DNA from: Polytrichum commune
Taxonomy: Eukaryota > Streptophyta > Polytrichopsida > Polytrichales > Polytrichaceae
Assembly: GCA_950295325.1 (NCBI GenBank)
Contig: OX485803.1
Span: forward strand, 13,204,001-13,268,000
Direction: 5' to 3'
Length of the DNA: 64,000 nucleotides
Within the stretch, counting starts at the first letter, position 1. Each line of letters opens with the position of its first letter. Below are positions 4,301-59,162 of this stretch, one piece after another. Position numbers and translations under genes: made by a program. The notes beneath the pieces were generated by a model. That model saw only the letters and a list, made by a program, of their open reading frames with translations. It did no database searches and had not been told where the DNA came from.

Positions 4301-5724
4301 TTGGTCCGCAACAAGAGTTGGTTGGAAGCCATACAGGAAATTCATTAGATCGTCCTCGTCGAAGCCAGTGTGCAAGTGGTATATTAATTTGGGTTCTATG
4401 TTAAGGGCAGGCGTTTTGATTCCCTTGTTTACAAAGAATCTCCGTGAAGAAACTAGATTAGGTTCTGTGCTTCCCATCAACTTGTGGTCATTTTCTGAAG
4501 CATTGCAGTGAAGCCCGTAGATAGTATATTACTTGTCGAAAGGGTGCAACTGTTGGAATTTTTCATGATTTAAACCCGATCTACAATTCAGTACAGCAAT
4601 ATTGTTGCAGGCAGGGCTCATGCAGACTCTTCCGATTCATCCCTTACAGCTCACACGAGTTTTGCGCTTCAATGTGCTCTCCCCAAATTTCTGACCCACA
4701 AAAGCTTCAAGTGGTGGACGCAATGCAAACACTTGATATTGAAGAATAATCTTCCATATGTCAATCTGGCATGTCGGGAATGTAAATCTTCAATTGATCG
4801 AACGCCATAATCTTCATATTGCGCATCAGATATAATATTGTATGATTAATATTTTCCTAAATACACATTACCAGTGACTTTGCACCTCATGATCTTATGG
4901 GTTTAAGTGGATGTCAAAGTCTCCTTCTTTCTTTTGTTGTAGTCTAAATACTCCGGCTAAAGAATTTCAAAGCCAATGGGGCCTGCAGAAGTGAGTGGGG
5001 AGGCTTTCTTGGGAACTCACCATGGATATCAAAGTCTTGATTTGAAGCAAGTTGCAACTATAATTATAAAAATAATCTAATAGTAAATTAACCTGTCATC
5101 AGGAGCAGTATCATCCTCATTGATCGTATCTAAGTAATGAAGTTTATGATACAAGGGACTCGATCGCTAATTAGGGTACCTTATGAAGCACTTTGAATAT
5201 TAAGATTAGGCTTGCACAAAAACTTTTGACTTCGATGTTTACCTTTGTCTGTCTGCATCTCTTATCTGATCTTGGGTGATGTTGAGATTCGAGATATCTC
5301 AAATCACTGAAATGTTGGAGGGTTGGAGTTGGTAGCTGTATGTGTTTTACTGATTTTTTTTTCTCTAGTTGTAAATCCATGGTCTCCATTCCAACCACAA
5401 AATGCATACAGAAAGATGATTGGGTTGGAAAGTTTGTAGCAGGGTCAGACCATGCAAATGCAAAAGTAACGCAAGTGGGCCTATATTGGTTTCTTATCTT
5501 TATCGGATACCTACATTTGAGTGGTGTGTGGTGAGAGAAGGATCTAAAGAAATTGAGGAGAATCTATATGATCATTCAAGAAGAACGAGAATCTTCGCCT
5601 TGAAAATGATATAAATATCCTTCATTCGAACATTGAAAATCATGCAGAAAATTGACGATAGCCTTGATTTGACTTTGCTAATCATCTTGTATAAATTACA
5701 TCTCTAGTATCTTGAGAGAAGTGA
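4301..5724. other. Gene-free stretch
   Basis: I see no recognisable gene, RNA or structured repeat. The open frames are short, overlap on both strands, and have no family resemblance I can name. Confidence 0.45.
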
Positions 5725-5875
5725 GCGAATGTGGCCACACTTCTTTATTCAACACCTACATTTGAGTGGTACATAGAATGACTTGTAGTCAGAAGTGGAC
5801 ACCTAAAAGACATATGTTACCATCATATTGAACTATGTGCTCAAAAAAATATAAAATCTTCCAGTTTCAATTGTT
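5725..5875 (+). repeat. Dispersed repeat family R3, copy 2
   Basis: The block order GTGGCCACACTTCTTTA, ACATTTGAGTGGTA, AGTGGACACCTAAAAGACAT and TTGAACTATGTGCTCAAAA matches the copies at 6660 and 28305. Non-coding and diverged. Confidence 0.65.
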
Positions 5876-6659
5876 AACATAATTGGAAGGACCTATGTCA
5901 TCATTTATCGAAAAAGAGACTCTTCGCTTCGATGACCTTGTGTAACGTTTCCATCTCAACTCAAACTTTGAAACTCAAAACGAATATCCACATGATTCGC
6001 AAGTGCTAACTAGATGAGACGGGACCTGATCCGATCCAACGTCAATCCTAATTGTTTCTGGTACTGGGAGTGCCCACACTAGGGCCTTGGCAGCAAGGTC
6101 TTCTTCAAAGCTCAAATAGCTCTCCTTACAACAACCAACTTGGAAATAACTGTATAGTATTACATTACGCAGTTACATGATTGAGCATGGTCTACCTTCA
6201 TTTCTTTCAAACTCTGCTTAAATTTCTTCAAAACCCCGTCTTCCAGGAACTGCAGGGCCATATTGACTGATTAATTTGAGGCTTGCATCGCTGCTGTGAA
6301 CAATCTCAGATCGTTGGAGTCAGAATATCATTATCTTAACACCTGTAATCCTAATGATAATGATAATTGATAGCAGTCCACACTTGAATCTTTCCACATA
6401 AAAATTCAAGCGTCCAAAATCGTGGTCAACAAAGTAGAGTCTAAGAAGAAGAAACTTTCCCTATTCTCTAAGAAACACTCGAACGAATTCACCTGATGTT
6501 AAACTTGCAAATATCTTGCATATACTGGATCATGACTTTTGAGATGAACCACACATTGAATTGCTAGGGTGAGTGTGTGTCTTAAACTTAGTATTAGTAT
6601 TACAATTTAGAAAAATAGATAAATTTAAAAAAAATTCAGGGTAAGACAAGATTATTATT

Positions 6660-6825
6660 TTATATGACGTATGTGGACCTTATATGTGGTCACTCATCTT
6701 AATTAATTATATACTTGTATTTGAGTGGTATGTGGGAAGGTTTGTTCTTTTGAATGGACATCAAAAAGACGTGTAGCATTTATATTGAAATATGTGTTCA
6801 AATATATAGTAGTCATTTTGAATTC
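6660..6825 (+). repeat. Dispersed repeat family R3, copy 3
   Basis: It contains ATGTGGTCACTC, TTTGAGTGGTATGTGG, GGACATCAAAAAGACGTGT and TTGAAATATGTGTTCAAA in the same order as the copy at 5725. It ends shortly before the hAT-like MITE at 6955. Confidence 0.65.
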
Positions 6826-6954
6826 AATAATGAATTGCAGAATTGTGAGGCATTACATGTCAAGAGATAGAGAATTTTTGTCTTGACATCTTATAAGTTT
6901 TGCATCTCAACTCTAATCTTGGAACGTGAAATGACAATCTCCGTGATTTGTAAT

Positions 6955-7357
6955 CCCGGGGAGTGCACTTAAAGTTAAGATTAGGAATACACGTGAGTGC
7001 GTTTTAATGGCATACCCCCTACAATACTTGGCCTTAAAATAGTTTTTAAATTAAGACTTTTTAAGTGCCAAATCATTACGTATATATCTATCACTTGGTA
7101 TAAATTTCAGGACAAAAAGTTTTTAAAAATTATTAAAAATTTGATAGAAGTTTGAACTAAAATGCGTTGTTTTTTGCTTCAAAAATCAATTTAAAAATAT
7201 TTACAATTGATTATTTTTTGAAATTTATACAACAAGAACTTTAGATTGTGTTTAACAACTTTTACAATTTTTATATGATTTTTTAGTACATACATAAGGT
7301 GGTCAAAAGTACGCACTCACGTGATTCCTAGTCTTAACTTTAAGTGCACTCCCCGAG
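6955..7357. mobile_element. hAT-like MITE, 403 bp
   Basis: The ends are inverted repeats of about 43 bp. The left end reads CCCGGGGAGTGCACTTAAAG and the reverse complement of the right end is CTCGGGGAGTGCACTTAAAG, continuing with few differences through an ACGTGAGTGCG segment. The element is flanked by an exact 8-bp direct duplication, TTTGTAAT, at 6947-6954 and 7358-7365. An 8-bp duplication with short length and no coding capacity fits a non-autonomous hAT element (Mutator usually makes about 9 bp). The interior is AT-rich and non-coding. Confidence 0.85.
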
Positions 7358-7779
7358 TTTGTAATTGTAGACTGTGTGGGACCAGATGAGACAAATCATG
7401 ATCTAATCCACCAGCCAAAATTGTTTTTGAATTTTCAAGTTGGAAGGTACATCTATGGGTACCTCGCTCACAAAACTCCAATATAAAGGTATGTGGCCCT
7501 ATAAGATGTACCTTTAAATAAAGTAGTGAGAGAGAGAGCTCCGCAAAGAAGCATGGGCAAATAGAACTCTGCACAACGTACAAAGCTAAACAAAGTGAAT
7601 ACCTATATCACTTGGGCATAACAAGGGTAACTAGGGTTGCACACTATTTTCTTTTTTTGGAACAAGAAGACAAAACCAACTACAGATTTTTTTACATGTA
7701 AGAATTCATTAGATACCTTTGCCATAGTTTTGCATCATGCATGTAAACTCAACCATATGAAGGTTATAATACAAAGAAC

Positions 7780-17091: not shown

Positions 17092-17145
17092 GGCTTTGGT
17101 TGAAGTAATTGTTCAAATTGTACATAATTTTTTTAGTCCGGAGTC

Positions 17146-17793
17146 ATGCCAATGGATGGTGAGCAAAAGAAGAAGAGGTTTGCCATTGAACCCAATGAGT
17201 GGTTAGGAGTAGATAAAATTTGTCCACGTTGCCAGTCGACTAGGTACAAGTTCAAGTATCTGAACAATCGCAAACGTGACCAACCTCGTTATTTGTGTTT
17301 AGACTGTAAAAAGTTTTATGGGTTGCATGTGCAAAAGGGAGCAAGGAGGCCACACCCAGGAGGCTACACAAAGCGTAAGATCAAGATTGACATGCTCAAA
17401 AACTTGTGTCCAATCTCTGGGTGTGGAGGAAATGGTTTCAAGCACATGCTCCCAAATGGTGAGCCTAGTGACAAACCAACAACATCTAAATGTTTGGCAC
17501 GTGGAATTGATCGTCATGCCATCTTGCCAAATCAACATACTCAACAACTACGAGAAGATCATCATGCAACACCATATCAAAACCTCATGAACTACTCAGA
17601 GGTATTTGATCAAATGGCGACTTTTAATGGACCAACATTAATTGAAGAGCCCAACATTTCTTTGGACGTAATAGAGGATCATCGCCACAATGTTGACCTC
17701 GAGAAGGAGAATTTGATGAATGTCTTCGATTATGCATATGATCAATTAGGAGATTTTCTTGAAGAGCCAAAAAAATCTCCCAAATATTTGTGA
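17146..17793 (+). CDS. Divergent Dof-like zinc-finger protein, 215 aa
   Basis: The protein is likely a nuclear DNA-binding protein. Residues 26-54 give the exact Dof spacing CX2CX21CX2C (C26, C29, C51, C54). Dof-typical residues are also present: CPRC, KF-Y-NN at 35-41, and QPRYLC. The second half of the domain departs from the classical form. After C54 it reads KKFYG instead of the usual RRYW, and a GARRPHPGGYTKRK stretch replaces the usual GGALRNVPVGGG segment. A second Cys/His-bearing stretch (C88, C93, H100, C116) follows, then an acidic tail. The start is the first ATG after a well-placed TATA box, and the gene has a single exon. The 3' end may be frameshifted at a run of seven A (17769-17775): with one A fewer the frame would run on to a TAA near 17845 and add SSQPFEDVPNFTEF-like acidic sequence. 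DNA binding by this variant is uncertain. Confidence 0.75.
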   Translation: MPMDGEQKKKRFAIEPNEWLGVDKICPRCQSTRYKFKYLNNRKRDQPRYLCLDCKKFYGLHVQKGARRPHPGGYTKRKIKIDMLKNLCPISGCGGNGFKHMLPNGEPSDKPTTSKCLARGIDRHAILPNQHTQQLREDHHATPYQNLMNYSEVFDQMATFNGPTLIEEPNISLDVIEDHRHNVDLEKENLMNVFDYAYDQLGDFLEEPKKSPKYL

Positions 17794-30604: not shown

Positions 30605-31431
30605 TGAGTTTTTTTTCTTCTTCTGTGTTGGTGGGTATGTGTGTGTATGTGTGTTTTTTTGTGGGGAGAATGTTTGTACATGTGTAGGTTGGGCATGGAA
30701 GAGGAGGGTACGTGGTGATGCCCATGAGGGAGGTGGGGGTAGGATTTTGGATTGTGATGATTTTGAGTTTCACTTGGTCTTATTAGAGTTTTTGCTGTGC
30801 TGGTGTATGTTTGTGTATGTGTGTTTTCTGTGTTTAAGCATGTGTAGGTGTATGGTTGAGCATGGAAGAGGAGGTTATATGGTGATGTCTATGATGGAGG
30901 TGGGGATAGGATTTTGGATTGTGATGATTTTGAGTTTCACTTGGTCTTATTAGAGTTTTCTGTGATGGGGTGTGTGTGTGTGTGTGTGTGTGTTTGTGGG
31001 GACAGTGTTTGTGCATGTGTAGGTGAGTGGCTGGGCATGGAAGAGGAGGGTATGTGGTGATGTGAGAGCTGGGATATCTATGGGGTGTGTGTGATTTGAG
31101 TTTCACTTGGTTTTTGGAAAGTTTTTTCTGTGTAGCTGTATGTGTACATGTATGTGTGTTTTTGTGGGAAACGTGTTTGTGCATGTGCAGGTGAGTTGGG
31201 CATGGAAGAGGAGGGTATGTGGTGATGTGGGAGCTAGGATATCTATGGGCTGTGTGTGATTTGAGAGTTTCACTTGGTATTGTAGAGTTTTTCTGTGTTG
31301 GTGCATGTGTGTTTTTGTGGGGAGAGTGTTTGCGCATGTGTAGGTGAGTGGTTGGGCATGGAAGAGGGTATGTGGTGATGTGGGATGTGGGATGTGGGAT
31401 ATGTATGGGGAGTGTATCTATGGAAGGGAGG
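30605..31431. repeat. Minisatellite, five units of about 166 bp
   Basis: GAGTTTCACTTGGT-type unit starts recur at 30605 (degenerate), 30765, 30932, 31098 and 31265, that is every 160-167 bp. Each unit contains a GT-rich tract (TGTGTGTTTTTGTGGGGA), GTGCATGTGTAGGTGAG and TGGGCATGGAAGAGGAGGGTA. The 245-residue minus-strand frame across it is a His/Thr/Pro low-complexity by-product. Confidence 0.9.
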
Positions 31432-32657: not shown

Positions 32658-33400
32658 GAAATTGCGTTAATTTCCAGAGGGGATGTTCTTTTAGTTATAA
32701 AAAAACTCAAATGATTTGACTGGGATCGTCTGGGGGCTGAATTTGTTTCCTATCTACATCAAAAAATCTCTTTGTGTGATCAATTTGGTATCATTGCAGT
32801 GTCCACATTCTAACAATTGCAATGATGCTATTGTTTTTGACTTTAGTGCAAGTGATATAGGTAGAACTGGGAACCATGGGCTTGGCTACCTCAACGATAA
32901 TCTTGGAACTAGGTCATTGGCTAAGACTTAAGTTGGAAATTGCGTAATTCCCCAGGGGAGATTCTTTGACTACCGATGCACTCGAATGAGTCGACTGGAA
33001 TTGGCTGAGGCTGATTTGCTGTTTAAATTACTTCATAGAATATCTTACATAGCAATATGCTTTCACAGCAGTGAGTCACCATAGGTATTCTAACAACTGC
33101 AACGATGCTATTTTACCTGACCAGAGTGCAAGTGTTACAAGTTGAACTGGGACCATGGGCATCGCCACCTCGATGAGAATCTTGAACTAGGTCATGAGTT
33201 AAGAATGAAGTTGGAAAGCGCGTAATTCTCCACGGGGAGATTCTTTGACTAACGATGCACTTGATTGAGTCGAGTGTGATTGTCTGGGAGTGAATTCGTG
33301 TCCAACTGAATCACAAAATAATTTAATGTGTTCAATATGCTTCCATGGCGGTGACCATATTCTAACAATTGGCAATGATGCTCTTGTTGATGTCAGACAT
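32658..33400. repeat. 278-bp tandem triplication upstream of the LOR gene
   Basis: A GAAATTGCG/GAAAGCGCG landmark recurs at 32658, 32936 and 33214, exactly 278 bp apart. A second landmark, ATTCTAACAAYTG-CAAYGATGCT, recurs at about 32807, 33085 and 33359. Copies are diverged. The third copy is cut short where the LOR coding sequence begins, so the ATG lies at its edge. Confidence 0.85.
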
Positions 33401-34313
33401 GGCGAGGAGAACCGAGGTTGACCGAATCAACGATCCTAATTTCTTGGTGGAGCTTGCAGTTGGCCCACCTTTGGCCGACTTGGTGCCGCAGCAACCCGGA
33501 GCTGGAATTTCCTTTGGGGGCAGATTTTTGCAAGCTCCAGGTCGGTTTATTTTTAAGAAAGCCCACTTGTCCGCAGACGACAATCGGATCTTTAACGCAG
33601 AGAATGGGCAGCTGGTTTGCGTGTCCCACCATTATGGAAAGAATCCATACGACGCCTTAGACCCGTTGGGAATATCGCACCAGAACGATTACTGGAACCG
33701 AACACACATTCTCGGGGAATGGGAATCCATTTGCCATGTGACTGGGTACCATGGCATGCCAAGCTTCAAGGTGAAACCTAAAACATTTTCAGCCCACGGA
33801 CGGCAGTTCATCATGGACAGCCATGGTGAGAAGACATTCTTCAACATCGCCAAACAATCGAGGCTCAAATCCATGTCCATCCGACATAACCTGGTGGTGT
33901 GCAAGGGCGACACCGAGGACGACGTGTACATGATACTCGTCGACATGGCAGGTCGGACAATGCAAATCGTGAACGAGAAAGACGAGCGAGTGGCTATGGT
34001 GCAGAAATCGGTGAAAACTCTAATCATGAATGCAGCGTTCGGGGCTGGCTCGGAGCTCATGATTGATATTGCACTGGGTGTCGATTGGACAACTATTCTG
34101 GCTATTGTGATTGGGCTCAAGCAAGTCGGGGAACATTTTCTCAAGGATGCTGTGAGCAATTTCGTGCTTAGCCCTGCCCAAAATGCTGCCCAAGACTATG
34201 TGTTGGATGTGTCCGGGATGGGAGGTGTAGTCGGAGATGCTGGCCAGTACACCGATCAAGCCATTCGAACACTTAACATCTTCCAAACATTGATGAGGGA
34301 GTTTTACCATTGA
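33399..34313 (+). CDS. LURP-one-related (LOR) domain protein, 304 aa
   Basis: LOR proteins have a Tubby-C-terminal-like beta-barrel; Arabidopsis LURP1 is needed for basal defence against an oomycete, but the biochemical role of most members is unknown. Seen here: a beta-rich body with FIFKKAHLSADDNRIFNAEN and a GEWESICHVTGYHG segment, ICIV-type strands around VYMILVDMAGRTMQIVNEKD, and a hydrophobic helix after LMIDIALGVDWTTILAIVIG, which corresponds to the central helix that ends this fold. A C-terminal extension of about 65 residues follows. I place the start at ATG 33399 in good context (GACATGGCG), just after a possible AG splice acceptor at 33395-33396. Upstream in-frame ATGs at 33375, 33378 and 33390 are less likely. 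The coding sequence is GC-richer than its surroundings, uninterrupted and intronless. Confidence 0.8.
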   Translation: MARRTEVDRINDPNFLVELAVGPPLADLVPQQPGAGISFGGRFLQAPGRFIFKKAHLSADDNRIFNAENGQLVCVSHHYGKNPYDALDPLGISHQNDYWNRTHILGEWESICHVTGYHGMPSFKVKPKTFSAHGRQFIMDSHGEKTFFNIAKQSRLKSMSIRHNLVVCKGDTEDDVYMILVDMAGRTMQIVNEKDERVAMVQKSVKTLIMNAAFGAGSELMIDIALGVDWTTILAIVIGLKQVGEHFLKDAVSNFVLSPAQNAAQDYVLDVSGMGGVVGDAGQYTDQAIRTLNIFQTLMREFYH

Positions 34314-38399: not shown

Positions 38400-38606
38400 A
38401 TGGAATTTCAGAAGAGCAAATCCGTGCGGATTCGTCTCTGTTTTGAAGAGCAGAGTATGCTTAGTAAAGTGCAGGCGGATCAGGGGCTTGCCAAGTGCTG
38501 GTACCTTGTTGACACGAATGTGCTGCTGAGCATTGCCAGTCTCGCCACTCGGATTTCTCTCGACTACAACCTTGGGCAAACTTGTCCACATGGCATATCT
38601 CTCGAG
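38400..38606 (+). CDS. coilin: Coilin exon 1
   Basis: Encodes residues 1-69, most of the N-terminal domain: SVRIRLCFEEQSMLSKVQAD at the start and CPHGISLE at the end. Phase 0 donor GTAAAA at 38607. Confidence 0.88.
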
Positions 38607-41600
38607 GTAAAACCATTCGTGGCTGTTTTTGCGAATCTGTTGGAGCAAATAATTGAAGGTTTATTTGGAGAATTGCATTTGCAAGCTTTCTGAGGCACAG
38701 GAAGAAGTGGGTAGAAAATCAGCTAGGCATTTGGGTTGTTTTGCAAAAAATCTCGTTTCCACTTTTCCGGAATTATGGAACGACGAGAAGTGATACTCTG
38801 TATCTCAAACTGGGGGTTTCAAGTGCAGGATTTTACAATCACCTTACATCTGCTGTCTGTTTATTCCTAAACCCTAAACTCTGCTAAATCCTAAATGGAT
38901 GATTGCATTTGCAAGCTTTCTGAGGCACAGGAAGAAGTGGGCATGAAATAAGCTAGGCATTTGAATTGCTTTGCAACAAATATCTTTTCCAATTTTGTGG
39001 AATTACGCTACCAAGAGGATTGATACTCTTTGTTTTAAACTGGTAATCGATTCGAAGTGCACCTTGCACTACTTTCTGTTTTATTGCTAAACCATAAACC
39101 CTTGCTTGTATATCTGAGCCCCAGAATTTCTAATTAGAAGCTTCTTGCAAAAGAAGCACCATGCGCAAAAATTGTCAATTGATGACCTGGAGACGTTCTT
39201 CCGCACCTCTGTTCTGGTTCAACATCCTGGAGTGAAAGGATTTCCTCCAAGAAGTTTCTGAGTGATTGGATTTTGTAATCTTTTTACAGATATGTGGTTT
39301 TGTCCTGCCTCCTTCGCAATCCACACGCCTTCTTCAAGATTCAGACCTTGTCAGGTATGGAGTGGTTTGGCATATATCAAAACGCCCCGGAATCAACGTC
39401 TTAATGAATATACAAGCCCGCATGTCTCATATAGGTTAATTTTGTATTCTATATGTAGTGTATTTCGTTGTGACAGGTGGGGAGAGTCGAGCAGAATGTT
39501 GCAAAATTAGACTTAGGGTTTCATTTTTTTAATATTGAAGTTAGGTTGACAAGCTCTCATGACCTTCATATTAGGTAGAGTTCATATCAACTCTACTGAG
39601 GAGCCAAACAGACCTTGTGATTATTGATGAATTGAAATCAGGACATTGATAATATACTTCAGTCATTAAATTAACAATTGGCCTATTTAGGTTCCAATGC
39701 AAATGCATTATCCTTAGGTAACCTGGATAACCTAACAATGATTCCATTAGGGACGCACCTCTTTAATGGAATCTTGATAGATGGAAGAAGGCTTTGTGTC
39801 CAAAGATAGGCAACAATGGGGTATGGACTAATGAGAGCCTGCCACTTGACAATGCTCGGCATTCATGCATGTACATAAGAGTCTCGATTCTTCAAAATAT
39901 ATTCTTGAACCTAGATTAGAAAGAGAACGGCCTTACACATGCTAAAGAATGCTATAGATGATTACAATCCTGTTTTTGGATGTTGGATGGCAGTGTGAGG
40001 CGGAGTCAAGGTGGAGTTTCAGGAGTCCACTCAAGAGAATTGCTGACAAATAGTCTGAGTGTAGATGATGAAGAACTTAGAATCATTACTCGATATAACA
40101 AGGTTGGACTTCGGGCTCTGGAGGAATTTGAGAAAGAGGCTGGAGGTTATGAAAGTGAATACTCGGAGGATGAAGACCCCAAGGTTTACTTAGGTGTTGG
40201 AAACGATGTGGAAAGTGCAGAGATAGCTAAAAGGAAGTCGAAGCTGAAAGAGTTGAATGGGAAGAAGAGGAAGCGGTCTTCCAACATTGATACATTGTGA
40301 GTGCCAACAGCAGCTGGTTCACACATTTTCCTTGATCAAGAAACCTTTTGTCATGTAATTATGTAAAGAGGTTAATTTTCATCGTGCAACTCTTTTGTGC
40401 CACATAAAGTTTCTGAAACATCCTTACCATTAACTAGTACCTCCACATTGGAATTTGAAACACTTGGGATGACTTTCAGAATTCATGAAGTGAAAAGAGG
40501 TTGAAGCTTAGTGATTCTGATGTGCAATTTCATGAAGAAATACATTCAGGAGTTCCTCATGGTAATACTTGATCAAAGAGTTGCCATCTTCAAGACTTGA
40601 CTGGTTCTTATTTTCTTCCCACATTGGAATATTTCTACAAGTGCAGTTTCCCTGGAGTTCTTGGCATCTTGAAATTAGGAGATACTATTGTCATTTCAGC
40701 TGGGGATTGACACTTCTAAGTGTTTTAATATGAGAAATGGATTGGTGATTTTAGACTGCCCCTATGAACAGACAAAATCCAGGGTGTACACCTTCAGATG
40801 TACTTTTCACTGACCTTTTGTCCTTGAAAGCAATTTAGGCTGTCCCTGGCCTGGAATATTTGTTTCATGGTGACAAGAGGTTCATGATTTCAATAGATTT
40901 TAGTCCCACAACATTCTGGAATTATCAGTTTATGGGCCTATTAATGAATCCAATGAATCGTTCATGATTGACATGAAGTTATTGATTGTTGATGTTTGTC
41001 ATTGGTTGCTTCAGGCAGAGCAAAATGTTAGTTACTTCTCCTGTATACACTTCAAGGGCAGCAGAAAGAGACTTAGGAGGCTCAGATTTACAGAACAGGA
41101 AATCCACCAGAAAGGAGAAAATCAAGAAAGGCGCAGAGTGCATATTAGAGGATGGAGATGGAATTGGTCCATTGAGAAGTGAGAAGAAGAAGAAGAAGAG
41201 CAAATTGGTAGAAAAGACATCACCAAATGCAAAAAGTTCTGAAGACAGTGAGGGGAGAACCTCAAATGCACAGGAGCAGAGGTTGGGCAAAAAGAGGTAC
41301 CATTCTGACAGCTGTCTTATCTTTATATTACCATGTTTGACGTGTGGGCATTCATATAAATAGGCCAATAAAACTTGGTGGTACCTACAATTCTCCTATT
41401 CCTTGGTATTTCGAGTGTGGGATCATAAATCCCCTACTAGAATCCTTTCTTCTGAAAGTTCTCACAAAATTTGCCACCTTCCTGCAGTGGAAGCTGTTAG
41501 GGCAGCAAGACAACTTGTTTAGACTCTGATTGCCCTTCATTAGATGATTCAAGATGTTCAAGGGACCATCCACACTTCCACACTGCAAAATGGGAAAGAC

Positions 41601-44600
41601 GTGTGAGGTGGTAAAGTAGGGGATTACTTTGTCTTGTTTTTTTGCACCAGTTCATTAGTCCATCATCTGATATACTAAAATTCCATTCCAAATAATGAGG
41701 AAACTGACAACATGCTGTTGTTTTTCTGGTTGTTTTTGGGATCTCAGAACTAGGAAGCACAAAACAGACCTGGAGCAGGTCAATTTGAAACCTATGGAGG
41801 AAGAGAAGACACCATGCCGTAGTAAGAGAGGAGAAAATTTGTCAGTGTTGAATGGGGGAACTGGGGTCACAGCAGAAGCAAGTCAGGATCGGAAGAAGTC
41901 CAAGAAGCGTAAAGACAAGAACCCTGTGGAGGTTGATGAACAGGAAGTACAGCCAAAGAAAAAAAGGTGTGCATGAATTGTGAGGAATTTGGAAGTCTTC
42001 TGAATAATGTTATTTATGCAAATTCTAGATGCTGTCATGTGTTCACTTCCTTTTGTAGGTGCTGTCTCTTGTCACTTGCAGGTGACAAGGATGTTGCCTT
42101 CATTGTGTAGGTCAAATTCTGTTAAGAAGGGGTCTGTGATACATGGTGAACCAAGGTCATCAAATTCTATGGAACAGAATTGTCTTATAGACCAATCATG
42201 TCATACCCGTTTATAGTCTTTCTCATAGTCTGATCTTAAAACTGTCACTCTAGATGCTCACTATTTGACAAAGTCACTCGAACTTGAAGTTGCTATTCTA
42301 GACACGTGTCTTACTGTCTGTAGCACCATACTACTCCCTCCAAAGTGTTTACTAGGCAGTGTTCTCAATGGCAGATGACTAGGGGTATGGTCTTCCTATT
42401 CAAGCAGAAAAACCGGTTAATTGATTTCCTAGTACAGTATCAAGAAAAGTGAGGCTATCCCGGATGTTTTTGGTCTATATCATAGATATAAAAGCTATGG
42501 TATTAGTGTCTGAAGTGTAATGTGACTAGCTTGACCCCTGCCATTGACCACATATTTAGATGTGCAGTGTGGATCACACTGTATGAATGACATTATTATA
42601 CTGAAGATGTCTTTCCAGGCCTTTCCAATAATACTGTTACAGGATTATTCTACATTAAGGTGTTTCCAGGGACTTTTGCTATCATAAGTAATGCAAGACA
42701 TTGTACAGCAGAGCATGGTTTTCATTGTCAATGAGTTACTCAAATTTATTATGTTGTATTAATGATCATTTTCACATTTGTAAGAAAGAGCTGACCTTTA
42801 ACCCTGCATTGTGTGGGCAGCAGTGACAAAAACAACAGTAATGATGGCAATGCACTGGCTGTAACTGAACAGACTAATTCTGAAGAGAAGGTCTGGCTGC
42901 TCACCTCACCAAAATTGGATTGCATCGTTCCTTACATCCATTTGAATTCCTCACATAATGTCATCCTGCACTAAGAAAAAAATGTATCTCAGCATTTATT
43001 ATTTCACTTGCAAAAGTCACTTCTGGGTATATGGTGTTGTTGTACTCAGACAGAGGTTGTAACTTCTTACACTTCAATATCTCAGAATTTGGGAACTGTG
43101 TTCTTTGAACTGCTGAAGGTGCATGTGGGATGTCCTATTTTATGGAAGCTTAGACTGATATTTAAATTTTGTTGTGGCAGAGACCCAGCAGAAGTGCACG
43201 CAGAAAAAAAGCAAAGAGGAGATGGCTCCGTGAACAAGCCCAGGTTTGTCTTGCAGCACTTCTGAATGATGCTGTTTGTTTTTGCCAAATGCTAAAATAA
43301 TACTCAGGCAAGGCACAACCTTCTGTCAAATTATTGAGCTGATAGATGAATTATACTGTTGTATGGTTTCCCTGCTGGCTTGATGCTGCAGAATGGAACA
43401 CTTCCCAAAAAAGAGGATGTGAAGGAAAATCGTAAGGAAGAGCCCAATGCTGAGTCTGATACCTCGGAAGAGGTGGCGGTGGCAGTGGCAGTGGAGGTAG
43501 AGGTGGAAGCTGAAGAGGAGATACTTCCTGTCATGGTTGCCCCTGGTCACATTCGATTTGAACCTGATGAAGGTAATATCAATTTTGGGTCATGCTGAAT
43601 TGCCTGTACTTTTATGAAATTGATGATGCAAGTTAAAAAAGGACCACATTGTTTCTTTTGCTGTTTAATTCATTGCTTGTTTTGTAATGTGATCCTTGGG
43701 AGCTGCTCATTGTTTAGTTGGGCTAGGTTTGATCAATGTGGAGTAGTGGGCAAGATTAATGTTGAAGTTTTTCAAAAAAAATTTTACACTGCGATCCCTA
43801 CATTGATATGAAAGTTTCATGAAGGTGTAAATAATTTGTTTCTTTGGTAATTCAATTTGAAGTCTTTGTCGAATGATCAGCATTATCCTGGCACTAATTA
43901 TTTTCCCAATGCAGATGTAGGAGATCAAGATCAACATGCAATGGTTAGTTTTCCAACTATAGTGAAGATTGATCTGATCAAAAGCTTTGTCACTTTGACA
44001 GGGGAAAGTGGATACATCCTACAATATATGTGATGGGCTCCTGTAGGGAAGATGGTTTCATCAAGGTTCTGGTTGAAAGGGACAATTAAGGACAATATTG
44101 GTGGATTTTGACTTGGGATGTGCAGCCTGTCTTGCAGTTAAGTGCAAATATTCGATGCAAACGACAGGGTCAAGCTTGGGGTCAAGAAAAGTCATATTAT
44201 GACAATCATCATGAGAGTAATGGCTATGGCAGGAGCCACGAGAAGAGGGAGAAGAAGCATTTAGAACAGCTAGCTGAAAAAGAGATGCCTGCTGGTGATA
44301 AGATTGTCAAAGATCTCATACAGTATGAGAAGTTTCCTGTGCTCAGTCGGGTTCCTCAGGTTTGCACCTCACTCCTTTGTAAAGATGTGATGTGCTCTTC
44401 ATTGGAACTTGCACACCATACTATTCCAATCTCAATAATGACTATCTGTCACGATCTCATAAATGTCCATCTTCCTTGCACTGATTCAATTTAACTTTTA
44501 AAGGATTTAGGGGTGTGTGTATATGGGATACATGATGATTTGTATGAGCTCTGAACAAGTATTGCATTAATATTTTATCTGGTCTATGATATTAAATCCA

Positions 44601-47600
44601 TGTTTTAGCACAACCTACTACAAAGAGGAAATGAAAATAAAGTCATATGTGACAACAGTAACCAGATATACGTGATATGTACTTGAGTCTAGGTCATTTC
44701 TACAAGCTCAAATCTCCCTTTGATTCATTTTACATCTATGTATGCTCCAATTGTAATAATGCATATAAATAATTGGGATGATTCTAGATGGGGTCATTTT
44801 TGACATTTTCAGCTAAAAATATCAAGAAGTAACCTTACACCCTTTGTAAGACACCTTGATGGGTTAAGGGAGCATCAAGTCTGTACTTGACTGTTCTAAA
44901 GTTGCTACTTGCCATGTATGAAACTCCCACCTGACCTTCATCCACAAGAAGGATGGGGAATACGAGGACAGTAAATTCTGCAGCTTCTTTAAGTAAGAAT
45001 GTAGTGACCTTCCAGTTTCCATGCAAAGGATATAGAATTGGTCATGAGAAGGACTTTCACTGAGGTTTATCTGGTTGCCCAGGTTGGTGATGTTTTGGCT
45101 TACAAATTGGTGGAGCTGACAGCTTGTTGGACTCCAGAGCTCTCTGCCTACAGGGTGAGACATAGATCATGCAATGATTGTTAACTGTCAATTAATATTT
45201 TCAGTTCAGTAATCTAGTCTGCCATCTGACGTCTCGGCTAAGTTTTTGGCAATTGTTTCTCCAACCCTGAACCTCGCTTATGGAATGATTTGCTGAATTT
45301 GTGTTGAGAGCCGCTGGTTCTCCTTGCAGGTGGGGAAGGTGTCAGTATACATTGAAACAACCAGGGTTGTCACTCTAGTACCTGTTCCTGAGTATCCAAT
45401 ACATGTACAACAGCCAGAAGATTACAACACAAATGCACAGCAAGATGATGATGATTCCTTTCTACCACCTTACAATCCAGATGGCACACTAGAGGTGTGT
45501 TTACACATTGCTCTTGCTCAAACGTACATTTTCAGGTAGACGTGCCTTAGATGGATACTTTTCTCTCTGCACCCACTTCTCATAGGATATGAAACATGCA
45601 ATTAGTTCAATATGATTAGCAAGTCCAAATCATGCCCGTATGAATATCTTATGCATTATGAAACTGAAGAATCTTGTGCTCATTAAGTGGTTATATAGGC
45701 CCCCTCCCCAATCATTTTGAGCATGTAGTGTAATCTCTTTCAAACACATGTCTTTTTGGTGTCGGTTCTTAGATCCACGCCTAATCACATACAACTCAAA
45801 TATATTTGTACAAATTATTGTTGTGTTTGATTTAGGCATGTTAATTTGAAGTCAAAGAAGAGCTTTTTTGCTAGGAGCATACTGTTTTTTTTTCTTTCGA
45901 CTCTTTGTAATGCTTTTGTCCTGTTATTCTATACAAGCAATTCCCACTTATCAAAATGAGGAAGGTCCTGAAGCCTTTAAGAGGCCTAGAGGACATAAAA
46001 GCAGTCACTCTCCCTTGCTCCAACCTTCAATTAACATTTATGTAGTGAGCATAACAGTGGTTTCTTCTCCTTGTCAATCTCTAGAAAGAAAATTTATACA
46101 ATTGTTTGGATTTAATGCTACTAGTGTGTTTCGTTCTATCTTGTAGGTAGACCTTGCCGCACTCATGGAGGTCAGGGTTCTGGAGGATGGCCCTCAGAGT
46201 GGTGCAGTAGCTGTTCAAGCACAGGAAGCACCAAAACAAGAGTTGCACAATATTGGTGCATCTACTGTAAATGAAGGCCTTCAAAATTCAACTGATCCAG
46301 TAATTTTGCAAAGAGAACCGCAGCAGGAGGATGTAGAAATTGCTGTTGCTGTTCAAGAAGCTTCATTGACTAATGAAGATCTTCCACAGAATGATCATGG
46401 GGGGATGAGAAGTGGACAACAAACTATGGTGGAGGGAGCTGAGTCTACCTTGACCATAGGGCTGGTGGAAGCTCTTGAATCCAATTGTGATACAGGTATG
46501 GACTGACGATGTTTGCTGCGTTCTCATGAAGGCTGGATGTTTAGAATGCTCAATGTCTTCAAAATCAATACATTATATAGGTAGTCGTTTATAAGGGAAT
46601 TTTGGGGGTAATTCATTGCCACACTTTCTGTGTACCCAAAAGGTGTGTTCAAAGGTTGAAGGCCTTGCATGCATTTCAACTTGAAGAGCACCAAAATAAA
46701 TGCACTTCACATGAACATTTTACTTTGTTCCAAACCCCTTTACAAAAAAATCTAGTAAGTTTACAGTAACTTGTTAACATGCTATTGAAGCTTTGAAAGC
46801 AACACTATATCCAAACTTGACACAATCTGGTCACATAAATTTGAGAGAGTGTGTACTTCTATTTGAGTCCACTTCTGGACAATAATACTTGCCCAGTCTA
46901 AAATTGAATAATAATTTAGACTGGACAACCAATTTCATATGTTGATCAAGCCTCTCTCCAAGTAAACCAATCTAACCTTGACACTGCAACAGTAATGGAT
47001 TTGCTGCAACTGCCACTTGACTAAGAATGAGAATGAGAAAAAGATTGAGACCAAGTGGGGCGTTTATGGATGTTTAGAATGCTCAATGTCATAACATGGT
47101 GGATGTCCCACTTGTGCTTGGATTTTTGACCCATCAAACCTAGCTAGTATCAAAACGTGTGAATCCCACTCAAGCCAGAGTAAAACATGAGGAGAATCTC
47201 AATGATAATCTGTTGAATGAGAAATAAACACTTCAGTAAGGTTGAAGGGTTGAATGTTGCAATGGGAATGTGATTCAATTAAACTTAAAGTTGGTAAAGC
47301 CAGTCCCATGATTGTTTTAGGTTGAGTTTTTTTGAATAATTTGATGACAAGATTAGTATCAAAGACCTCGAATTAGTTGAATGGGACACATTTGGAACAA
47401 ATTAATCACAAACCTATAGAGGACATATTTTAACATGGATGGATGAGAGGTATGCCCATAAGCGACAATCTCTCATTGTGAAATTGTGAAGGACATTTTT
47501 TCTGTTGGTCTTCACTCCTACACTCTTGCGAAAAACTTTTCATAATTTTGTGAAGGACTCCAAAAAACAAGACCGTTTTTGACCGTCAGGCATTGAAGCC

Positions 47601-48194
47601 TTCAAACTATAACACAGACAGAAGGTGGTTTACTGCAGTAGACAGGTGGCCAACATAAATTTCATTGGTCTGTAGTCTCTGCCTAAAATTGCTGCTTGTT
47701 TTATTGCGCGCTCTTTTGTGGATATGATCATTACTGCTCCAGTTGAGGTTATCTATGCTGGTCAGGGTGGAGGTTCTCTGATGGTTTGTGTATCACTATC
47801 CATTTGGTGTGTTGCTTTGGTATGCAGGAGTCTTGACACCTCGGGTCGTTCAATACTGTCTGCTTAGCGAAATGATAGTTTTTCCATGTGACATTAGCAT
47901 GTAACTGTGATTAATATTCCAATTCTGGTGGCAGCTTGGCAGGATATTCTCTCTCAAGATCTCAACAAAAAGAAGTTGGAGCTTGCAGCAAAATTTGGTA
48001 AGCAGTTGTCAGGAGGTGAGGGTGCTGAGCCAGCAGGGACACCAACAACAACGAGCAAACCGGAAGCCTTGAGTAACCAAGATACCAAGACCGGACCTGG
48101 GAAGAAAGGGATACCTCAAATTCGACATCGCCATATGCGTACAGGTGCTTTAGGACCAACAATGGCCATGCTAAGAGCAAGTCAAGTTTTGTAG
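38400..48194 (+). CDS. coilin: Coilin, Cajal-body scaffold protein (14 exons, 832 aa)
   Basis: Coilin organises Cajal bodies in the nucleus, where snRNPs and snoRNPs mature. All introns below are GT-AG with compatible phases: 38400-38606, 39290-39354, 39994-40296, 41015-41296, 41748-41966, 42821-42890, 43181-43243, 43392-43572, 43915-43943, 44126-44359, 45083-45154, 45330-45494, 46147-46495, 47935-48194 (2499 nt, in frame). Family landmarks in order: N-terminal self-association domain (VRIRLCFEE, CPHGISLE, GFVLPPSQSTRLL); EFEKEAGGYESE; Lys-rich nuclear-localisation stretches; RSARRKKAKRRWLRE; PGHIRFEP; GQAWGQEK; the atypical Tudor-like domain (GDVLAYKLVELTACWTPELS to LEVDLAALMEVR); and the C-terminal GALGPTMAMLR segment. 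It is longer than Arabidopsis coilin, mainly through the Lys-rich middle and exon 13. Start: first ATG in a GACGATGG context. Uncertain: exon 6 (42821 or 42824) and exon 10 (44126 or 44138) starts. Confidence 0.9.
38672..39100. repeat. Imperfect tandem duplication in coilin intron 1, about 225-bp period
   Basis: GCATTTGCAAGCTTTCTGAG begins both units (about 38677 and 38905). Both continue with GGCACAGGAAGAAGTGGG, AGCTAGGCATTTG and TTTTATTGCTAAACC-like sequence. The first unit overlaps the region just past exon 1. TTTAGGG-type motifs (AAACCCTAAA) occur inside. Confidence 0.85.
39290..39354 (+). CDS. coilin: Coilin exon 2
   Basis: Encodes GFVLPPSQSTRLLQDSDLV, matching the conserved plant coilin GFVLPPFES segment. 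Acceptor TTTTTACAG, donor GTATGG, ends in phase 2. Confidence 0.85.
39994..40296 (+). CDS. coilin: Coilin exon 3
   Basis: Joins in phase to give DLVSVRRS. It contains ALEEFEKEAGGYESEYSEDE, equivalent to the acidic GGYESE block of plant coilins, then a Lys/Arg-rich stretch. Donor GTGAGT at 40297. Confidence 0.8.
41015..41296 (+). CDS. coilin: Coilin exon 4
   Basis: Lys/Ser/Glu-rich, low-complexity middle region with a SEKKKKKSKL nuclear-localisation-like stretch. Acceptor TTGCTTCAG, donor GTACCA. Confidence 0.7.
41748..41966 (+). CDS. coilin: Coilin exon 5
   Basis: Continues the charged middle region (SQDRKKSKKRKDKN, QEVQPKKKR). Acceptor GATCTCAG, donor GTGTGC; phases 2 and 2. Confidence 0.75.
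42821..42890 (+). CDS. coilin: Coilin exon 6
   Basis: A short exon encoding SDKNNSNDGNALAVTEQT. The acceptor could be either of two adjacent CAGs, which alters the exon by 3 nt without changing the frame. Confidence 0.65.
43181..43243 (+). CDS. coilin: Coilin exon 7
   Basis: Encodes RPSRSARRKKAKRRWLREQA, the highly conserved RSARRKKAKR-WLRE nuclear/nucleolar-type basic motif of plant coilins. Phase 0 on both sides. Confidence 0.9.
43392..43572 (+). CDS. coilin: Coilin exon 8
   Basis: Contains a Val/Ala/Glu repeat (GTGGCGGTGGCAGTGG-type DNA) followed by ILPVMVAPGHIRFEPDE, equivalent to the conserved VRPGHIRFEP block. Confidence 0.9.
43915..43943 (+). CDS. coilin: Coilin exon 9 (29-nt micro-exon)
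   Basis: Encodes DVGDQDQHAM, linking phase 1 to phase 0 between exons 8 and 10. Acceptor CCAATGCAG, donor GTTAGT. Confidence 0.6.
44126..44359 (+). CDS. coilin: Coilin exon 10
   Basis: Contains CKRQGQAWGQEKSYY, equivalent to the KKKGQKWGTEK block, and the start of the Tudor-like domain (IQYEKFPVLSRVPQ). The start may instead be 44138. Confidence 0.85.
45083..45154 (+). CDS. coilin: Coilin exon 11
   Basis: Encodes VGDVLAYKLVELTACWTPEL, the best-conserved Tudor-like strand segment. Exact 72 nt, phase 0 on both sides. Confidence 0.92.
45330..45494 (+). CDS. coilin: Coilin exon 12
   Basis: Encodes VGKVSVYIETTRVVTLVPVP and an acidic loop (QQDDDDSFLPPY), continuing the Tudor-like domain. Confidence 0.92.
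45725..45800 (-). repeat. R3 repeat copy in coilin intron 12
   Basis: TTTCAAACACATGTCTTTTT, GGTGTCGGTTCTTAGATCC and AATCACATACAACTCAAATA match the reverse complement of family R3, so the coilin intron has taken up intergenic repeat sequence. Confidence 0.6.
46147..46495 (+). CDS. coilin: Coilin exon 13
   Basis: Begins VDLAALMEVRVLEDG, the end of the Tudor-like domain, then an acidic, Gln-rich linker. Acceptor TTGTAG, donor GTATGG, phase 1. Confidence 0.88.
47935..48194 (+). CDS. coilin: Coilin exon 14 and stop
   Basis: Encodes AWQDILSQDLNKKKLELAAK and ends GALGPTMAMLRASQVL, equivalent to the conserved ALRG-A-GPVMN-LRS terminus of plant coilins. Stop TAG at 48192-48194. Confidence 0.9.
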
Positions 48195-55655: not shown

Positions 55656-58600
55656 TATGCGATCCCCTGCTCCGGCATTTCTCATGGCGACACCTACTAA
55701 TCCCTCCACCATGTCACCTGCATCCGGGGCATCGTCCTCTGCTCCGGCAGTTGCAGTGAGTGTAGGTGGCAGTTCCTCTACCATGGCAATGGCACCTGCA
55801 TCTGATTCTGGAAAGCATCCCTCCTTCAAGTAGAGGGTGTTGATGATCACCCCTGGGGGAGAGTTATCAACTGCCGCAATGCAAGAGGTTGTCCAGATCT
55901 CTTCAACCGCGTCTGCAACCATTTTTTCTCCCACCCCACTGCATGTACCTGCTCCATTTGAGACTGATGCATTGGACATCAGTGGGTCCCCATTCACTGT
56001 CGATGGGCCTTCAAGTAGTAGTAGCACCAGCTTTGATGGCTTCCAATGAGCAATCAGACACCCAATTGCTACCAACCTCACATGAACCTCCAACAAAGAA
56101 GTGAAAAATTCCGAAAAGAAGGTACCTCTTAAACCCTAAACCCTGGTTGTATTTTTTGGGGAGTAATGAATTGGCTGAGGGCTGAGGGCTAAGATTATTC
56201 TAAAATGTCGCCTCAATTTCCAATTTCTAAACATGTGTCATTTCCATTTCTAACATGTCAATTGATGTGTGATATTTTTTCTTTCTTAAGTTTTGAGGAC
56301 AGCATAGGAAGTGGCCCCTAAACCCATAATGTTTGGGGAGACACGTGCATGGCAGGTTTTTGGCGGGTGTAAACCCCTCCCCCCCGCCCCGTCTAGGGGT
56401 AGTGGAGCGGGCCCTTCCTGCTGAGGCCACGTTTTTTTCTTGTGAAAACTTTGGGGGGGGGTTTACACCCGCCAAAAACCTGCCATGCACGTGTCTCCCC
56501 AAACATTATGGGTTTAGAGGCCACTTCCTATGTTGTCCTCATTCTTGAGGGCCTCATTTCAGGCCCTTCCGGTTGTTTTTTTGGCATTTTGAGGTTATGT
56601 TTTTGATGATGTCTTGTTTCTCACTGGTTTAGGGTGGTTTTGGTGCAGATTTCAAGAAAATTGGACAGCAAATACTCATGGTCTCAACAGGACCCTGAAG
56701 GGGATGGTACATTTGACAAAGTTTGATGTATCATCTGCTCTAAAGTAAATGGCAGAGACAAAATACTGGATGCAAAAGATGACAACCTGAAAAAACACCA
56801 AGGATGGAAGAGAGCCCTCAGCGACTTATCTTCTTTGAAGGTGAAGAAGGGTGAATGGTATTTCGAGCAGAATTCCGTCCACAAGCGTGCTGAGAGGACA
56901 TTTGCAACACTGCCTGTTAATGATATTGTAATCCTAGTTACAGCTGGGGCTCCTCCAAAACGCAAGGAAGTGCAAATGGCAATCATCTTCCATTTGTTAC
57001 AATTTGAAACACCTATGACAAAATATCCACCCATGAAGGAGCTGTTACAATTCTTGGACGTTCCTAAGTTCAAAATCCTTCATTTCCTTTCAGTTTCAGT
57101 TGCTCATGCTATTAATTTTGTTTTGAAACATCGTGTTGGTTAGTAATGACACTTGAATGTATGTACAGGTTCCATTGAAGCATTAGACCGAGGGGTCGAG
57201 TTGGGAAATGGCTGAGAGTTTGTTTAACGTTGTGCAAGCAAAGACAAAAGAAGTAGTAAGTACAACCCCTTACTTCTCTATCACTTGCGATGAAGTCACA
57301 ACGTTGGACAACCAATCTTGAATTAGCATGCATGTTATACAATTCAATATTGGGAAAGAATGCCAATGTTGTTGTGCTTGCAGCGTGTGATTGAGGGTGG
57401 TGGTGCCGATAATATAACCAAGATGATTATTGGTGCACTCACTAATGAAGGTGGGTTGACCCCACATCAAATTAGAGACCGATTCATGGCATTTGGGGCA
57501 GATGGTGCATCGGTTTTGCAAGGGAAGAGGAATGGTGTCACTAACAAGCTGCAGGTTTCTCATGCGCCACACATGCAAGGCATGCATTGTGTGGCACATC
57601 GATGCAACCTTGCAGTGCAATGTCTATCAGATCTGGAGATGGTGGCTAGGATTGAAACCCTACTAGCTACTTTGTACAAGTATTTTAGTAAGTCCCCAAA
57701 ACGTCATTTGGAGCTCCAAAAACTTGCTGAATTGCTTGAGTCTAAGGGCAGAAAAATTCTTCAAAATGTAAAAACGAGGTGGATTTCAATGTTGAGTCCG
57801 TTGAAACATATTTTGTCAGAGTACCGCACCATTTTGATGAAGATGTACTCTGATCATCTTGTAAAACCAACAATCCCAGCAGCCAAGGTAAATTATTAAC
57901 TCATGACTGATATCAAGTTTTTACTGACCTTGGCTGCAGTGCTACCTCTTCTAGAGGTTGTGAAAGCCTTGGTTGTCTTTGCACAATCCCCCAGTGTATA
58001 TATGTGTGATTTCACAAGGGCATTGAGGCTTTATATCTCAGATGTGAATGACTTGTATTGCACAAACAATGCATTCATTTCAGATGCATTTTCATGCTTC
58101 AAAAATATATGTGACCTTTCGCATGAGAGCATCCGCCTAAGGTGGCATCCAGATGTGAATGATTGTATTGAGCACTTGGTTTTTTAGGCCCATTTGTCAA
58201 CTTCAGTCGGTTCCCACCTCAATGCGACTTGCGTTGATCATGTCACACACTTGAGGAGTTTTGTGACAAAAGAATTATTTAATAGAACAATATCGGAGGT
58301 GAAGGTCGAGGTTGCAGGTATGTGTTTGTTTTTAGTTTTGTTTGTTTGTATATGTTTTTGCATCTTTTCATTATATCAAGGTTTTGTATCCATGAGTATG
58401 GATCTAATGTATTGGTTTTTTATTGCAGATGCTACAGCCATGATGGTGATGGAATTGGGAAGTAGGTTTCCCCCTAGTGAGGTAATGGATGCACTGTCCA
58501 TTGTGTATCCTCAATTTTGGCTTGAGCTAGGGCATGAGGACAAACTCACAGGGTATATGAACACTTTGAAGCAAACATATGTTCACACCAAGGATTTCTC

Positions 58601-59162
58601 TAGCACTACACATGTTTGTGATACATGTCCAACAGTGTTGAGTGCTATGGCACTTGATCGGCAGTTGCATTGGTTTGTTATGGCTATGGCGAATAATTCT
58701 CCTCATGCAATGAGGGCCATGGATACCCACATTCATCCCTTAACCAAACTATGGCGTGCCTTGGCACAATCTGGCCCTTTGAAGGGTATGTTTCCCGAGT
58801 TCTTTAAGCTCACAGAAATTGCGATGATCCAGGTAAGGGGTTATATTTTGAAAATATGTTACTTCATTAAACTTTCTCATGCTTTTTGTATTCATGTTTT
58901 TGAATGCAAGTTGGTTTCTTACTGACTTTGTCTCTTTGCATCCATTTTGTAGGTTCTTGGGAGCGTAGAAGACGAAAGAACATTTTCCGATGTTTATTTC
59001 TTGAAGAACAAACTCCGCAACCGCTTAACTGAACATTTACCTCTTGCTACAACAATGTTTGTACAAAAACATTACACATTGACATCATTCCCGTACAAGG
59101 ATGTCGTTTCAGATTGGAGAGCTTGCAAGCCGAAGTGCGGCCGATATGCACTTGGTGTTTGA
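55656..59162 (+). pseudogene. BED-finger hAT transposase gene, decayed
   Basis: Order of parts: Ser/Pro/Ala-rich N-terminus (from MRSPAPAFLMATP, about 55656-56110), an intron, and a BED-like finger (CIICSKVNGRDKILD, then KKHQG) at 56727-56800. Then come the catalytic-core segments FSITCDEVTTLDNQS, GADGASVLQGKRNGV, GMHCVAHRCNLAVQ and RNVKTRWISM-like NVKTRWISMLSPLKH, and the C-terminal dimerisation motif SVEDERTFSDVYFLKNKLRN, ending at TGA 59160-59162. Introns are plausible at 56121-56650, 58319-58428 and 58833-58952. In-frame stops lie at 55831, 56724, 57184, 57319, 57897 and 58185, with a frame change near 57350. At least three stops (57184, 57319, 58185) sit where the family has Trp. So it is inactive, though the sequence is recent enough to read clearly. 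Confidence 0.85.
56284..56549. mobile_element. Foldback element in the hAT relic's intron
   Basis: Arms at 56284-56385 and 56453-56549 are inverted repeats, nearly perfect for about 85 bp. The outer parts contain GAGGACA and GGAAGTGG, the inner parts AACATTATGGGTTTAG and CACGTGCATGGCAG in complementary order. The loop of about 67 bp is GC-rich. The long frames on both strands encode mirror-image low-value peptides. It would form a long hairpin in RNA. No target duplication was resolved. Confidence 0.85.

Follow-up and report, generated by a model that had tools for sequence, protein, structure and literature searches.

Coilins and host-adopted tyrosine recombinases

Coilins are best described from Arabidopsis and human cells. 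In Arabidopsis, coilin multimerises and uses its N-terminal and central regions to bind RNA (PMC3539977). In human coilin, the N-terminal domain self-associates via R8 and D79 and contacts Nopp140 via R36; when N-terminal domains with either R8A or D79A are transfected into HeLa cells, Cajal bodies disperse, which does not happen with the two substitutions together (PMC9556525). Here, a coilin gene is described from a 64,000-nucleotide (nt) stretch of the Polytrichum commune genome (assembly GCA_950295325.1, contig OX485803.1, positions 13,204,001 to 13,268,000), the whole of which is called the window. Two further loci of the same genome, named C1par and C3par, are predicted to join the coilin N-terminal domain to a domain resembling a tyrosine recombinase.

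The second half of these predicted proteins brings in another set of described systems, in which parts of mobile-element recombinases have become host proteins. The animal DUF3504 genes are domesticated Crypton recombinases (PMC3212892), and in plants a DIRS1-type tyrosine recombinase supplied the DNA-binding part from which the ALOG regulators arose (PMC3537659).

The coilin gene of the window

An initial annotation of the window had proposed a coilin gene of 14 exons with GT-AG borders, matching phases and a single 832-residue frame. Rebuilding the model from the sequence reproduced it exactly: at 38400-48194, 14 exons join into 2499 nt and 832 residues with one terminal stop, GT-AG is present at all 13 introns, and the phases are consistent throughout. 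Membership of the coilin family, also claimed by the annotation, is supported by a Pfam search of the joined protein, which finds a match at both ends. The Tudor_Coilin profile (PF23086) matches residues 538-644 over positions 3-104 of 105 (E 1.6e-32, 112.3 bits against a cut-off of 27), and the Coilin_N profile (PF15862) matches residues 9-194 (E 1.4e-7, 31.9 bits). Exon 1 alone gives 14.9 bits with Coilin_N, and exons 10-12 alone give 97 bits with Tudor_Coilin. Both scores are higher in the joined protein than in the separate exons; the joins themselves therefore add score. The N-terminal domain, Lys/Arg-rich middle, Tudor domain and tail lie in the expected order on one frame. The composition agrees with the Lys-rich middle and Gln/Glu-rich exon 13 of the earlier description (Lys 14.4% in residues 91-382; Glu 12.8% and Gln 10.3% in exon 13). 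The annotation further proposed that all conserved plant coilin blocks would be present and that these two regions would be longer than in Arabidopsis coilin.

On these sequence grounds the window gene is almost certainly a plant coilin, with an N-terminal self-association domain, a Lys-rich basic middle and a Tudor domain followed by a tail, and presumably a Cajal-body scaffold. Two results weigh against this assignment. The Coilin_N score of the joined protein lies 1 bit below the cut-off of 32.9, and a six-frame search of the genome with PF15862 returned no match at all, the window gene included, probably because the coilin exons are short. A search of PDB sequences with the Tudor part found no relevant match. 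With Arabidopsis and other plant coilins the window protein shares the N-terminal domain, the long basic middle and a C-terminal Tudor-like domain with tail; it has 832 residues against the 608 of Arabidopsis coilin (PMC3539977), and its N-terminal profile score is just below the curated cut-off. It is an ordinary new member of a known family.

Is this the only coilin gene of the genome, and is it intact? Searches of the genome (408 Mb, 64 contigs) with protein and profiles score best candidates only. Within that scope, the window protein recovers its own gene exon by exon, and PF23086 scores above its cut-off at the window gene only; a third PF23086 match, on C3, has an E-value of 5, which is chance level. 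As far as these searches show, the window gene would be the single full-length coilin gene. The slightly low Coilin_N score could be read as a sign that the gene is a pseudogene or a silent copy. That reading is highly improbable, as no stop or frame break occurs across the 14 exons and no other full coilin copy was found in the genome.

How might the protein act? Every step of the following proposal is modelled on published coilin work. The window coilin most likely works like other coilins: its N-terminal domains would multimerise, its basic parts would bind RNA and carry it into the nucleus, and the Tudor region would contact partners, so that the protein would scaffold Cajal bodies. The Lys-rich middle, with its basic blocks, would correspond to a region that is disordered in other coilins. 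In the alignment, the window protein and the two paralogues all carry a V/I-R-I-R-L motif, matched with human R8. The residue that we take to correspond to human D79 is Asp in the window protein and C1par and Glu in C3par; the human sequence used for this placement agrees with the residue numbers of PMC9556525. No counterpart of human R36 is visible in the alignment of the window protein and its paralogues.

Intron 1 contains a direct duplication. The possibility that this intron is a mobile repeat was rejected after a genome search; the duplication appears to be local because the search returned the intron itself and nothing else.

Splice borders and the 29-nt exon

How firmly are the exon borders placed? 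Within 60 nt of the border, each of the 13 junctions has 6-35 GT/AG pairs that keep the frame, the chosen pair included; at the exon 13/14 junction, 11 of 72 pairs keep the frame open. These counts weigh against the exact model, and since every junction has frame-keeping alternatives, GT-AG and phase alone do not fix the borders. The choice rests mostly on homology and splice-site scores. The first two junctions are supported independently by the two paralogues, which have a 65-nt exon 2 in the same phase. At exon 6, the twin acceptor offers an alternative start at 42824, which is in frame and gives one Ser fewer.

The annotation's 29-nt micro-exon is exon 9 of the rebuilt model, with the peptide (D)VGDQDQHAM. 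Its borders were scored by a small splice-site model trained on the introns of the window coilin and its two paralogues, with the micro-exon's own sites left out. The candidates were the 236 GT/AG pairs between exons 8 and 10 that give an internal exon of 3-200 nt and introns of at least 60 nt. Thirty-four of them are open and in frame, and the micro-exon scores highest of the 34. With 24 training introns it ranks first of all 236, whether the first or the refined borders of the paralogues are used; no other acceptor in the gap scores higher than its own, and just one donor does. When only the other 12 introns of the window gene serve for training it ranks fourth, a result that counts against the exon; none of the three candidates that outscore it is open in frame. 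Under each training set it is the sole open in-frame pair among the 12 best candidates.

The exon is most likely constitutive and would carry the frame on from the PGHIRFEP block to the Tudor region. An alternative is that the coilin gene is real and the micro-exon is not constitutive: its skipping would shift the frame and truncate coilin, as a regulated switch, or the protein would end by read-through of exon 8. The exon is short, its skipping would join a phase-1 donor to a phase-0 exon, and an unspliced exon 8 terminates within a few codons. With its twin acceptors at exons 6 and 10, the gene has scope for alternative forms. The fourth rank under window-only training slightly raises the odds of this alternative, which is nevertheless unlikely: with the 24 training introns the micro-exon pair is first of 236, no other open in-frame candidate outscores it under either training set, and it keeps the frame into the Tudor exons.

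Definitions of plant micro-exons with limits of 30 nt and 51 nt are quoted in PMC8831610, and exon 9 falls within both; it lies outside the 1-15-nt class of PMC8831610 and PMC12409088. Neither paper mentions coilin in its main text.

Two paralogues with a predicted recombinase-like half

A genome search with the window protein also hit two other loci, over exon 1 only: C1:35978944-35979150 on the minus strand and C3:49379431-49379631 on the plus strand, where the paralogous exons are 46-52% identical. Around these matches, C1par and C3par each continue from exon 1 into a second exon of 65 nt and a third that starts with SVKR, in the same phases as in the window coilin. After refinement, the predicted proteins have 649 residues from 6 exons (C1par) and 613 residues from 8 exons (C3par). 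In this refinement, comparison with relatives led to other splice borders for exon 6 of C1par and exon 7 of C3par, the latter thereby losing a stretch of about 75 extra residues. The Coilin_N profile scores 44.4-44.5 bits in C1par, above its cut-off, and 30.2-30.6 bits in C3par, below it; no Tudor domain is among the Pfam hits of either. Over 124 N-terminal residues, C1par and the window protein share 45% identity; the first models of C1par and C3par share 27% over 558 residues (E 1e-49).

When the genome was searched with the N-terminus of C3par (E up to 10), seven matches were obtained, six of them at the three known coilin-N loci. The seventh, at C4:7574823-7574879 on the minus strand, covers 19 residues of the exon-2 part of C3par at 74% identity (E 0.96); it is perhaps due to chance, or perhaps a stray coilin exon 2.

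Are the two loci true fusions? At each of them, coilin exons 1-2 are followed by a tyrosine-recombinase-like domain in what is predicted to be one transcription unit. The link between exons 3 and 4 is itself a prediction, and some borders score poorly: the acceptor of C3par exon 8, at -5.9 with the first borders and -2.4 with the refined ones, tells against a fusion. Coilin N-terminal remnants might thus lie by chance upstream of separate recombinase genes. Against this, both loci show one and the same order, with exons 1-3 in identical phases. The gap between exons 3 and 4 is just 168 nt in C1par and 165 nt in C3par, so that a second promoter would hardly fit in.

The exons and introns of both paralogues were also given a codon score, for which the window coilin served as training set. 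The predicted frame is preferred in 13 of 14 exons, three of which score slightly below zero, yet above their own other frames; exon 1 of C3par is a tie (0.05 vs 0.06). All 12 introns score below zero whichever of the three frames is read. At both loci, good coding scores in the joined frame are obtained for the linking exons 3 and 4, which again speaks against two separate genes. A chance arrangement is rated as rather improbable.

On balance, the genome seems to carry a protein family of new architecture, in which the coilin N-terminal self-assembly domain would be fused to a catalytically dead, Crypton-like tyrosine recombinase. Among the papers listed by full-text searches of one literature collection on coilin, Cryptons and tyrosine recombinases, judged mostly by title and abstract, no report of a coilin-N/recombinase fusion was seen.

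The loss of activity is suggested by motifs, from which the catalytic residues of the domain were assigned. Both fusion models stop before box III, which bears the tyrosine, and a search with relatives found no match to box III better than E 2.4 in the sequence regions around the fusions. The Arg of box I in the relatives is Lys in C1par and is kept as Arg in C3par. The recombinase-like part of both predicted fusions is likely to be catalytically dead.

Putatively mobile relatives of the recombinase-like half

The C-terminal half of both fusions is related to a multicopy family with at least 34 distinct loci, the two fusions counted; this lower bound comes from genome matches at E up to 0.001 or 0.01, grouped into loci. 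Many matches contain stops, some of which stem from introns that are read through. Sequence regions covering 17 of the 34 loci were retrieved. Two subfamilies were found there, one with 3.2-kb copies at L010 (2528-5726), L012 and L013, and one with copies of about 3.6 kb at L014 (2308-5945), L018 and, as far as its sequence was taken, L017. Similarity between copies within each subfamily is 97.6-98.5%; L011 is similar along 2.8 kb, and L023 reaches 95% along 1.1 kb. This similarity suggests recent mobility in a plant genome.

The ends of the copies differ from their surroundings, and GTACTAG occurs at the 5' end, or within 3 nt of it, in both subfamilies. Inverted repeats were absent from the ends of the four copies checked, where 4-5 of the first 20 positions agree. 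No reverse-transcriptase-type motif was found in open reading frames of at least 150 residues at 10 of 11 loci, the eleventh, L017, having one unlikely FSDD.

To which recombinases is this family related? Phage_integrase matches in L014 (E 1.6e-4) and L015 (E 2.1e-5) lie below the family cut-off and have a GH...Y box at the end; when L014 is joined over its full length, the score becomes worse (E 0.0012). Neither the corresponding part of L010 nor either fusion has a Phage_integrase match. C3par, L010 and L014 show weak similarity to QRICH1 (PF25561; E 0.02-0.19, below cut-off), C1par has no such match, and no match above cut-off was found in a genome search. DUF3504 (PF12012) is absent from the Pfam hits of the fusions in both first and refined models; the genome search with PF12012 gave none above cut-off and one sub-cut-off match elsewhere (17.2 bits). 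Searches of PDB sequences with the recombinase part, alone or as a profile, found no relevant match. Because the Phage_integrase and QRICH1 matches are sub-cut-off and neither DUF3504 nor a relevant PDB sequence was matched, the family is labelled Crypton-like by anatomy; it is neither a proven Crypton nor a DUF3504 member.

The animal DUF3504 proteins, with ZMYM2 and QRICH1, likewise combine a host domain with a recombinase-like domain that lacks the catalytic-tyrosine end (PMC3212892). C3par and its relatives share with them the weak, sub-cut-off QRICH1 similarity, which is absent in C1par. By contrast, the predicted fusions described here belong to a plant, have the coilin N-terminus as their host part and lack a DUF3504 profile match. 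ALOG offers a plant precedent for reusing part of a tyrosine recombinase as a host protein. In ALOG, the reused piece is the N-terminal, DNA-binding portion of an enzyme from a retroposon (PMC3537659), whereas the fusions have a longer recombinase-like region together with the coilin N-terminus. Unlike the source of ALOG, the elements related to the fusions show no credible reverse transcriptase in the motif scan.

One origin or two?

Have the two predicted fusions arisen from one event? C3par is 45-49% identical to L014 and L017, and 52% identical to L019 over 167 residues. Compared piece by piece, C1par shares 34-42% identity with L009 and 34-37% with the L010 type. In a tree of nine recombinase domains, one row of which is only 24% filled, C1par groups with L009 (83/92) and C3par groups with L016 and L019 (86/90) in another clade, and a well-supported, starred branch (100/98) separates the two. 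Taken alone, the placement of the recombinase halves in different clades points to two captures, or to one capture with losses.

The introns also bear on the question. An intron position after YP is common to C1par and C3par; the frames of L009 also break there, and L010, L014 and L016 read through. The shared position speaks for a common intron-bearing ancestor. A second break, before RY, is common to C1par, C3par and the element L014 and is missing from L010; because L014 has it too, shared introns are not a mark of the fusions alone. If the fusions are real, there would have been two captures of the coilin domain, or an old element or gene lineage would have carried it and its mobile relatives would have lost it.

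The relative of the C1par recombinase part at L009 (C7:14416500-14426400, minus strand; frames at 5273-7402 of the reverse complement) has frames that break where C1par has introns, and no coilin-N match was found in the 9.9-kb region. L009 may be a third domesticated copy.

Features of the window and of the two paralogous loci

Table 1. Exons of the window coilin gene, the duplication in its first intron and the two predicted paralogues (window positions unless a contig is given).
Feature	Position	Strand	Description
Coilin exon 1	38400..38606	+	207 nt; start codon, N-terminal domain; phase 0 out
Coilin exon 2	39290..39354	+	65 nt; phase 0 in, 2 out
Coilin exon 3	39994..40296	+	303 nt; phase 2; exon 3 of the paralogues starts SVKR at the same place
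Coilin exon 4	41015..41296	+	282 nt; Lys-rich middle
Coilin exon 5	41748..41966	+	219 nt; Lys-rich middle
Coilin exon 6	42821..42890	+	70 nt; tandem CAGCAG acceptor
Coilin exon 7	43181..43243	+	63 nt; basic block RPSRSARRKKAKRRWLREQAQ
Coilin exon 8	43392..43572	+	181 nt; acidic stretch and PGHIRFEP; phase 1 out
Coilin exon 9 (micro-exon)	43915..43943	+	29 nt; phase 1 in, 0 out
Coilin exon 10	44126..44359	+	234 nt; alternative in-frame acceptor 44138
Coilin exon 11	45083..45154	+	72 nt; Tudor domain
Coilin exon 12	45330..45494	+	165 nt; Tudor domain
Coilin exon 13	46147..46495	+	349 nt; end of Tudor domain and Gln/Glu-rich tail
Coilin exon 14	47935..48194	+	260 nt; C-terminus and stop
Intron 1 direct duplication	38666-38813 and 38896-39043		2 x 148 nt, 82% alike, 230 apart
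C1par (L007)	C1:35975485-35979177	minus	predicted; coilin N exons and tyrosine-recombinase-like domain without catalytic end
C3par (L005)	C3:49379425-49383994	plus	predicted; coilin N exons and tyrosine-recombinase-like domain without catalytic end

Elsewhere in the window, an open frame at 17137-17790 on the plus strand matches the Dof zinc finger (PF02701, 47.5 bits, cut-off 26.6), as is in keeping with a plant genome, and a tandem array at 30638-31393 holds about 4.6 copies of a 167-nt unit with 77% matches. By eye, a 315-residue open frame at 33366-34310 (plus strand) resembles a LURP-one/tubby-type protein, and a chain of open frames at 56727-58922 (plus strand) resembles a decayed hAT-type transposase; at E 0.01 neither is matched by Pfam. 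Scanning the window for Rfam families and tRNAs gave no hit.

Possible implications for coilin and for recombinase domestication

The window gene provides a checked model of a coilin whose exons, one of them of 29 nt, are short and easily missed. Most of the interest lies in the coilin-N/recombinase paralogues outside the window. Their proteins could enter coilin assemblies and add a DNA-binding part to them, or they could compete with coilin. If the fusions are real, they could act as tethers that bring recombinase-type DNA binding to coilin assemblies, or as poisons of Cajal-body assembly, and a nuclear-body scaffold would be linked to transposon domestication. With a natural N-terminal domain placed on a DNA-binding relic, one could readily test whether the assembly of Cajal bodies can be redirected to chromatin or antagonised. 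The fusions would also extend the known domesticated tyrosine recombinases by a plant case.

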